Below, piece after piece: positions 46,019-61,830 of a DNA stretch of 64,000 nucleotides. A program made the translations under genes and the position numbers. The stretch covers positions 2,356,001-2,420,000 of the forward strand of contig NZ_AZUP01000001.1 of the NCBI RefSeq assembly GCF_000527135.1, in the 5' to 3' direction. This DNA is from Methyloversatilis discipulorum (GTDB lineage: Bacteria; Pseudomonadota; Gammaproteobacteria; Burkholderiales; Rhodocyclaceae). Position 1 is the first letter of the stretch. The number at the start of each line of letters is the position of its first letter. Under the pieces are notes generated by a model that made no database searches, had not been told where the DNA came from, and worked only from the letters and a program-made list of their open reading frames with translations.

Positions 46019-46035
46019 TCGCGAGCAAGCTCGCT
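46019..46035. repeat. left half of a REP-like hairpin cut by the IS110 element
   Basis: TCGCGAGCAAGCTCGCT is an inverted type-A REP (stem GCGAGC/GCTCGC) that stops at its stem/head junction. The missing head CCCACAA occurs at 47234, right after the element. Confidence 0.9.
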
Positions 46036-46066
46036 TGTATGTTCTACCCCGGCAGGCGTAGGAATA

Positions 46067-46232
46067 GCTTGTCGGGCGGAGGGACCGAGCTCGGATCTGA
46101 CGGCAAGCACGTACAGACAGTGGGAGAGATGTCCCGCCCTCACCCCAAGCACCGATCAGGAATCCATCGGACCGTGTGACCGCGGTACCGTCCATACCCT
46201 GCAAGCCAGTGCTGTGGTGAATCCCGACAAGC
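46067..46232 (+). ncRNA. candidate IS110 bridge RNA
   Basis: GCTTGTCGGG (46067-46076) pairs perfectly with CCCGACAAGC (46223-46232), enclosing two stem-loops. Loop 1 is closed by GGGAC (46081-46085)/GTCCC (46131-46135). Inside are AGCTCG (46088-46093), identical to the REP left of the core, and GTGGGAG (46120-46126), complementary to core plus right flank CTCCCAC. Loop 2 is closed by CACC and AGCAC (46148-46152)/GTGCT (46209-46213) and GGTG. Inside are GAATC (46160), identical to the right end, and CATAC (46193), complementary to the left end GTATG. This matches the target/donor guide layout known for IS621 bridge RNA. Exact ends are not known. Confidence 0.7.
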
Positions 46233-46262
46233 CTTTTGAACCTTAGTCGGGAGGGCCCCATC

Positions 46263-47228
46263 GTGACAAGTCAGAACGAGACAGTGTGCTTTGGCATCGA
46301 TATCTCCAAGCATTGGCTGGACATCGCCGAGTACCCCAGTGCGCGGGTGACGCGCATCGACAACACGGCTGCGGCCATCCGCGGCTGGTTGCGCACCCTG
46401 CCGAAAGGCCACCAGCGCATTGCCTGCGAATCGACCGGCACCTATCACCGCACGCTCGTCGAGCTGCTCATCGGCGCCGGACATCAGGTGTTTCTGATCG
46501 ACGGCTTCAAGCTGTCCAGGTACCGCGATACCGTGGGCCAGCGCGCCAAGACGGATCGGCATGACGCACGCCTGATCGCCCGCTACCTCGCGCACGAGGG
46601 CACGGATCTGCGCCCCTTCTGCCTGCCAGCGCCTTCGGTGACCGAACTGCGCGGCCTGCTGCGTCGGCGCGCAACCGTGGTACGCAGCCTCGGCCGCATC
46701 CGTCAGAGCATGGAAGATCTGCCCGGCTTTGGTCGCGACGTGCGTGTGGCCCTCGCGCGGCTCACCGCTTTGATCAAACAGTTCGAGCAGCGCATCGCCT
46801 CGCTGATCAACGAAAGCGGATGGACTGAACCGTATCGGCGCATCCTGAAGATAGAAGGCGTCGGCGCGCTCACCGCCGCCGGCCTGTGCGCGGCGTTCCA
46901 TCGCGCTCCCTTCAGCGGCGCCGACGCCTTCATCGCCTTCCTTGGCCTGGACGTCAGTGTGCGCGACTCGGGCAAGAAGACCGGACGCCGTGTGCTGAGC
47001 AAGAAGGGCGACTCGGAGATGCGCCGCCTGCTCTACAACGCCGCCATGGCAGCCAGCCGATCCACGACCTGGCAGCCCTTCTACCAGCGCATGCTCCAGC
47101 GCGGATTCCGTCGCACCCAGGCGCTCGTTGCGCTGGCCCGAAAGCTCGCGCGCGTTGCCTTCTCACTGATGAAGAACGCCGCAGACTATGTCCCGAAACA
47201 ACACGAAAACGCTTGCGGCGGAACATAG
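46263..47228 (+). CDS. IS110-family transposase (recombinase)
   Basis: Recombinase of 321 aa. N-terminal RuvC-like DEDD domain: CFGIDISKHWLDIAEYP (Asp), ACESTGTYHRTLVELL (Glu), GQRAKTDRHDARLIARYL (Asp pair). C-terminal transposase_20 domain: ILKIEGVGALTAAGLCAAF and the Ser-containing VRDSGKKTGRRVLSKKGDSEMRRLLYNAAMAASRS. Start GTG at 46263 has GGGAGG eight bases upstream; a TTG at 46236 is the longer alternative. Frame is intact and all acidic residues are present, so the element may be active. The stop codon lies next to the right-end inverted repeat. Confidence 0.92.
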   Translation: MTSQNETVCFGIDISKHWLDIAEYPSARVTRIDNTAAAIRGWLRTLPKGHQRIACESTGTYHRTLVELLIGAGHQVFLIDGFKLSRYRDTVGQRAKTDRHDARLIARYLAHEGTDLRPFCLPAPSVTELRGLLRRRATVVRSLGRIRQSMEDLPGFGRDVRVALARLTALIKQFEQRIASLINESGWTEPYRRILKIEGVGALTAAGLCAAFHRAPFSGADAFIAFLGLDVSVRDSGKKTGRRVLSKKGDSEMRRLLYNAAMAASRSTTWQPFYQRMLQRGFRRTQALVALARKLARVAFSLMKNAADYVPKQHENACGGT

Positions 47229-47231
47229 AAT

Positions 47232-47540
47232 CTCCCACAAGAAGCCCTCCCGGATCTTTGCCGGAGCGGTGCTTTCGTGGGAGCGAGCTTGCTCGCGATG
47301 CGGCCGCTGCTGTCCGCTGACTTCGATACATGCCGCTGTCGGGGTCAGAAGACCCCTCCCACAGAAGCCCGGCTCCGGCTCGGGCCGCGGGTCAGACGGC
47401 CCCCCTGTGGGAGCGGCCTTGGCCGCGACACGGCCGCCGCTATCCGCCGGCTCCGATACAGGCCGCTGTCGGGGTCAGAAGACCCCTCCCACAGAAACCC
47501 GGCTCCGGACCGGGCAGCGGGTCAGGGGCAGCTCCTGCGG
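47232..47540. repeat. REP-like hairpins right of the IS element
   Basis: Starts with the displaced REP head CCCACAA, then GTGGGA-GCGAGC-TT-GCTCGC-GA (47278), two GTCGGGGTCAGAAGACCCC-TCCCACAG inverted copies (47337, 47467) and GTGGGA-GCGGCC-TT-GGCCGC-GA (47407). The same conserved 40-base spacer (CGGCCGCTGCTGTCCGC...TTCGATA) seen in the 61-kb array separates each pair. Fills the 324-base gap before msrA. Confidence 0.9.
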
Positions 47541-61059: not shown

Positions 61060-61830
61060 CTCTGCGAGCGGCCTTGGCCGCGACACGGCCGCTGCTGTCC
61101 GCAGGCTTCGATCCGGGCGGCTGTCGGGGTCAGAAGACCCCTCCCACAGAATCCGCCCCCGGCCGGGCTCATGCCTGACGCATCGGCGCAATCCCTGTGG
61201 GAGCGGCCTTGGCCGCGACACGACCGCTGCTGTCCGCAGGCTTCGATCCAGGCGGCTGTCGGGGTCGGAAGACCCCTCCCACAGAACCCCGGCCGCGGCT
61301 CGGCTCATGCCTGACGCACCGGCGCGATTCCTGTGGGAACGGCCTTGGCCGCGACACGACCGCTGCTGTCCGCAGGCTTCGATCCAGGCTGCTGTCGGGG
61401 TCAGAAGACCCCTCCCACAGAATCCCGGCCGCGGCTGGGCTCATGCCTGACGCATCGGCGCAATCCCTGTGGGAGCGGCCTTGGCCGCGACACGGCCGCT
61501 GCTGTCCGCAGGCTTCGATCCGGGCGGCTGTCGGGGTCAGAAGACCCCTCCCACAGAACCCCGCCCCCGGCTGGGCTCATGCCTGACGCACCGGCGCGAT
61601 TCCTGTGGGAGCGGCCTTGGCCGCGACACGGCCGCTGCTGTCCGCAAGCTTCGATCCAGGCTGCTGTCGGGGTCAGAAGACCCCTCCCACAGAATCCCGG
61701 CCGCGGCTCGGCTCATGCCTGACGCATCGGCGCAATCCCTGTGGGAGCGGCCTTGGCCGCGACACGGCCGCTGCTGTCCGCAAGCTTCGATCCAGGCGGC
61801 TGTCGGGGTCAGAAGACCCCTCCCACAGAA
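61060..61830. repeat. tandem array of six REP-pair units, 136-bp period
   Basis: Units begin at 61060, 61196, 61332, 61468, 61604 and 61740. Each has GTGGGA-GCGGCC-TT-GGCCGC-GA, a conserved 40-base spacer (CACGGCCGCTGCTGTCCGCA...TTCGATCC), then an inverted GGGGTC/GACCCC hairpin ending CTCCCACAGAA, and a linker with GCTCATGCCTGACGCA. The first unit has a degenerate head (TCTGCGAG). Copies differ at few sites. The frames opened across it repeat the same peptide and are not genes. Confidence 0.95.

Follow-up and report, generated by a model that had tools for sequence, protein, structure and literature searches.

The 64,000-nucleotide window analyzed here (bases 2356001-2420000 of the single-contig 4.3-Mb genome of Methyloversatilis discipulorum) carries an insertion sequence (IS) of the IS110 group at 46036-47231, which lies within a repetitive extragenic palindrome (REP). 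This 1196-bp element very probably works as IS621 does, the IS110-group element of E. coli that founded the bridge-RNA elements and targets REPs (PMC11208160). What we read from the sequence is the insertion site and its empty counterparts, the guide matches, the covariation of guides and targets, the conservation of the RNA, and the catalytic residues of the recombinase. All features of the element and its flanking REP lie on the forward strand.

The left part of the interrupted REP (46019-46035) contains the left target AGCTCG (46028-46033) and the core CT (46034-46035), while at 47232-47238 the same REP continues with CTCCCAC, which holds the second core CT and the right target. The element is one of three full-length copies in the genome, each 1196 bp long and 94 to 100% identical, and all three are flanked on the left by the 3' half of the REP palindrome plus CT and on the right by CTCCCAC. 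A first-pass annotation of this DNA had supposed that removing 46036-47231 together with one CT restores a complete REP, and exactly this arrangement is found at the orthologous empty sites of two sister genomes: G226 (L104) and G182 (L105) read GCGAGCAAGCTCG-CT-CCCAC, with a single CT and an uninterrupted REP. For the own copy L003, both G182 and G226 (L116, L117) have an intact GGCCAAGGCC-type REP at the empty site, and for the own copy L002 the empty site in G226 (L120) is likewise an intact REP; at the L002 site in G182 (L121) our script did not match the left-flank pattern, and the stretch is a REP with one head base changed. The right flank is CTCCCAC in 27/27 Methyloversatilis copies used in the guide/target comparison, and these copies therefore share one orientation.

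Guides were assigned by the IS621 scheme (PMC11208160, PMC11208158). The motifs listed in the first-pass annotation all lie where it had placed them: the stem at 46067-46076/46223-46232, AGCTCG at 46088-46093, GTGGGAG at 46120-46126, GAATC at 46160-46164 and CATAC at 46193-46197. In the putative target loop, AGCTCG sits in the left target guide region CGAGCTCGGA (46086-46095) and is identical to the left target at 6/6 bases, and GTGGGAG, the right target guide, is the complement of CTCCCAC at 7/7, with A 46127 as its handshake base; between them an inner hairpin (46096-46117) is formed by TCTG 46096-46099 and CAGA 46114-46117. In the donor loop, GAATC serves as the left donor guide, identical to the right end plus the core C, as had been proposed, but the claim that CATAC is the other guide stands for its outer part only. 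The right donor guide appears to be split over 46194-46205, with AT 46194-46195 (AU in the RNA) as the outer part and, toward the core, G 46201 and CAAG 46202-46205, which is complementary to CTTG, made up of the core and the left end, followed by the handshake base C 46206. Both donor-loop guides, GAATC and AU..G-CAAG, thus match the element's own ends. As for the CT core, it pairs with AG in the right target guide and with the AG of CAAG in the right donor guide, and the left donor guide pairs with C only.

Relatives were collected from the genus (6/13 genomes at E <= 1e-20), the order (7/399 genomes at E <= 1e-40) and the class (9/369 genomes at E <= 1e-60), the own genome being included in the last two counts. 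From 50 starting loci we dropped L082, whose contig lacks the left end, and L014, L015 and L016, which are second records of L068, L073 and L051; we also excluded partial copies (L017, L019-L021, L047, L071, L075, L076, L078) and duplicate records of loci already sampled (L004-L013, L022-L026, L044-L046, L050, L056, L060). The comparison set holds 46 copies in 20 left-guide classes, or 19 classes for the right guide, since L087 lacks a right end.

By comparing guides with targets in this set, we found that left guides match the seven left target bases at a mean of 5.40/7, against 3.02/7 for guides of other classes, and that right guides match the core plus five right bases at 6.37/7, against 4.57/7 when swapped. 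In neither case did any of 100000 permutations reach the own value, so the matches of both target guides exceed chance. The first-pass annotation had also staked its reading on where homologues are inserted, and apart from four misfits their sites match their own guides and differ where the guides differ. Within the own genome, L003 has the guide AGUCCG (not AGCUCG) and is seated in an AGGCCG REP, which fits its own guide at 5/6 and the other at 4/6. The G118 copies combine guide GCGCCG with target GCGCCG, and those of G005 and G243 guide CGCCG(CU) with target CGCCG(CT). L092 and L101, from one genome, have guides CCCUGG and CCUUGG, each matching its own target, and in two genomes that belong to a single genus, L083, L084 and L087 show three guides and three targets (6/7, 7/7 and 5/7). 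Right guides vary too, with GUAGGAG for CTCCTAC in L097 and L098 and GAGCCGAG for target CTCGGCTC in L099, and the left donor guide tracks the altered donor ends of L099 and L085. CAAG is followed by C in 20/20 classes, and G occupies target position 7 in 19/20 (all but L094), in agreement with the published handshake pairing, though both are hardly variable; the base that follows the right target guide agrees with donor position 7 in 12/17 testable classes. Read together, the alignments indicate that guides and targets change together across lineages.

This covariation also bears on how the site is chosen. Every Methyloversatilis target is a REP or a REP fragment, and structure and sequence are therefore confounded in these copies, which would suit a rival reading in which the recombinase itself, or the DNA structure of the REP hairpin, selects the site and the RNA matches are by-products of short GC-rich motifs. 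However, such a choice leaves unexplained why the guide segments co-vary with their targets across lineages, and relatives elsewhere with different targets (e.g., L081 and L085) still match their own guides; we regard it as highly unlikely.

The RNA itself is conserved. A covariance model (R1) built from eight Methyloversatilis RNAs delimits the predicted bridge-RNA region at 46067-46232, from strand Y to strand Z, a match that holds by construction because the window sequence is part of the model. R1 matches over its full length at 20/20 distant IS110 loci, with E <= 0.01 for 19 of them and 0.24 for the remaining one, and at 0/25 controls, so the covariance check named in the first-pass annotation came out in favor of the RNA. 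The closing stem between Y (46067-46076) and Z (46223-46232), which that annotation had described, is backed by pair counts, but it is not the sole pairing of Y: a 5' hairpin of strand X (46048-46057) with Y is equally supported. Closing stem and hairpin are alternatives, because both use strand Y. For the X/Y hairpin, the mean z is -3.28 over 14 lineages. Alignment A2 covers 14/23 leaders (L074, L080, L081, L083, L084, L085, L092, L099 and L101 were omitted as duplicates or hard to align).

Strand Z has a second possible partner as well, for its CCCGAC can pair with GTCGGG (46246-46251) in GTCGGGAGGG (46246-46255), which overlaps the likely ribosome-binding site. Own pairs of strand Z with the Shine-Dalgarno region are stronger than swapped ones, with 291/100000 permutations as strong, which lends weak to moderate support to a regulatory switch in which strand Z covers the ribosome-binding site of the transposase. 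The same pairing would suit a conserved left-end RNA that serves solely as a leader regulating the transposase mRNA, with no guide function, and in the IS110-family element ISPpu9, which is found in REPs, the structure of the 5' untranslated region (5'-UTR) likely includes the ribosome-binding site (PMC8450116). Yet a leader alone would not account for four segments matching target and donor, and the longer leader window has a mean z of only -0.59; we therefore consider this explanation extremely unlikely and take the left end to encode a bridge RNA. The predicted bridge RNA and the long stretch of non-coding DNA at the left end place the element in the IS110 group and not in IS1111.

The DEDD recombinase gene (46263-47228) has a GTG start 229 bp from the core and encodes 321 amino acids, and the right end of the element lies 3 bp after its stop codon. 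The protein matches PF01548 at 75.3 bits (cut-off 29) and the C-terminal domain PF02371 at 66.7 bits (cut-off 21.3), and its sequence matches IS621 chain 8wt6 (E=1.2e-25) and ISCro4 (9t56; E=2.7e-23). Its DEDD residues align with those of IS621, and D13, E56, D98, D101 and S236 are invariant in 7/7 aligned proteins, 35 to 78% identical to the window protein. By a count along the 8wt6 alignment, S236 would correspond to IS621 S241, if the numbering is shifted by 2 as D11 suggests. As judged from these alignments, the recombinase keeps the DEDD residues and the serine of the IS110 family.

By analogy with IS621, transcription, RNA binding, circle formation and strand exchange would follow the known course. 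Excision would leave one CT behind and give a circle in which CT links the right end to the left end; this junction would form a promoter from which the bridge RNA is expressed from the left end, and the DEDD recombinase would bind this RNA. One loop would pair with both REP strands around CT and the other with both circle-junction strands, after which the serine would cut the top strands, exchange would take place at CT, and the junction would be resolved. Such loop pairing and CT exchange would therefore impose one orientation of entry into REPs. In the joined circle, a -35-like box TTGCGG (47213-47218) lies 17 bp 5' of TATGTT (46038-46043). A -35 hexamer opening with TTG stands 17 bp before TATGTT/TATGGT in 27/30 distinct joined junctions, the -10 part being fixed by the detection of left ends; it is TTGACA in L083 and L084, and the exceptions are L068, L093 (TAGACA) and L098.

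Several observations weigh against an IS621-like mode of action. The left target guide of the window element carries GA where CT is needed and leaves the core unpaired, unlike IS621, so that not all four guides pair with the CT core. Only 12/20 classes have their own left target as the best match or tied with it; agreement with the left guide is poor in L094 (1/7), L099 (2/7), L093 (3/7) and L061 (3/7); and the classes are related, so that the permutation counts cannot be read as strict probabilities. Moreover, taken singly, the RNA of the window element has a fold just mildly better than those of shuffled sequences (z -1.79), and the -35 box of the window junction is weak (3/6).

REPs are said to have been described in one study as targets of IS elements, and ISPpu10 of P. 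putida is reportedly seated in REPs too. The present element resembles IS621 (PMC11208160, PMC11208158) in its DEDD recombinase with serine, its left-end bridge RNA with target and donor loops, its CT core, split right donor guide and handshake bases, and its REP targets; IS621 has a circle-junction promoter, and the window shows promoter-like boxes (TTGCGG-17-TATGTT), recognized from sequence alone. It departs from IS621 in its left target guide, which leaves the CT core unpaired, and in a closing stem whose strand Y is shared with the equally supported 5' hairpin and whose strand Z may also cover the ribosome-binding site. ISPa11, an IS1111-group element of P. aeruginosa, likewise has a guide RNA from a non-coding region and a REP target, but that RNA lies downstream of tnp, whereas in the window element it lies upstream (PMC11187229). 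ISPpu9 of P. putida, compared by description only, is likewise seated in REPs and has a long structured tnp 5'-UTR, and differs in being regulated via two small RNAs (PMC8450116). IS621 (PMC11208160) and ISPa11 (PMC11187229) are already published as REP-targeting IS110-family elements with guide RNAs, and a REP-targeting bridge-RNA element is not a new kind, because IS621 already targets REPs. Our literature search, of partial coverage, turned up no publication dealing with this Methyloversatilis element. The element clearly exemplifies, in nature, a system of RNA-guided recombination that is already known, and, judging from IS621, it may be a programmable recombinase aimed at REPs, as the first-pass annotation had predicted. 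Its value lies in a natural series of bridge-RNA guides that, across one genus and even inside a single genome, have altered jointly with the REPs they target, with readable guides also in related IS110 elements of other bacteria; these genomic data support the IS621 mechanism independently and supply candidates for programmable recombinases.

Carriage of the element goes along with REP richness. The REP pattern CGCGN{7,12}CGCTCCCAC has 228 matches on both strands of the genome, compared with 6 for a reversed control, and the window has 14 REP matches (<=2 mismatches) against 0.02 expected. Seven of the 13 Methyloversatilis genomes have at least 133 matches and include all six carriers, and none of the six with <=54 matches carries the element (Fisher p 0.004, relatedness among genomes uncorrected). 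G182 is a REP-rich sister genome (188 pattern matches) in which the element has no match at E <= 1e-20.

Decayed copies with broken or truncated recombinase frames occur in M. thermotolerans and M. universalis (L018, L068, L073 and the partial copies L017 and L019-L021). Further REPs of the window include two 3' of the element (47277-47428) and six in a row that are spaced about 136 bp apart (61062-61762). Elsewhere in the genome (G000:C1), two Y1_Tnp (PF01797) genes at 781189-781419 (L124) and 3922420-3922650 (L125) are possible REP-associated tyrosine transposases, and a REP match at 781652-781672 lies about 230 bp from the first of them. The distant relative L080 is seated between TTCGACAAGCT and CTCAGCCCGAACGG, flanks that may represent another REP class.
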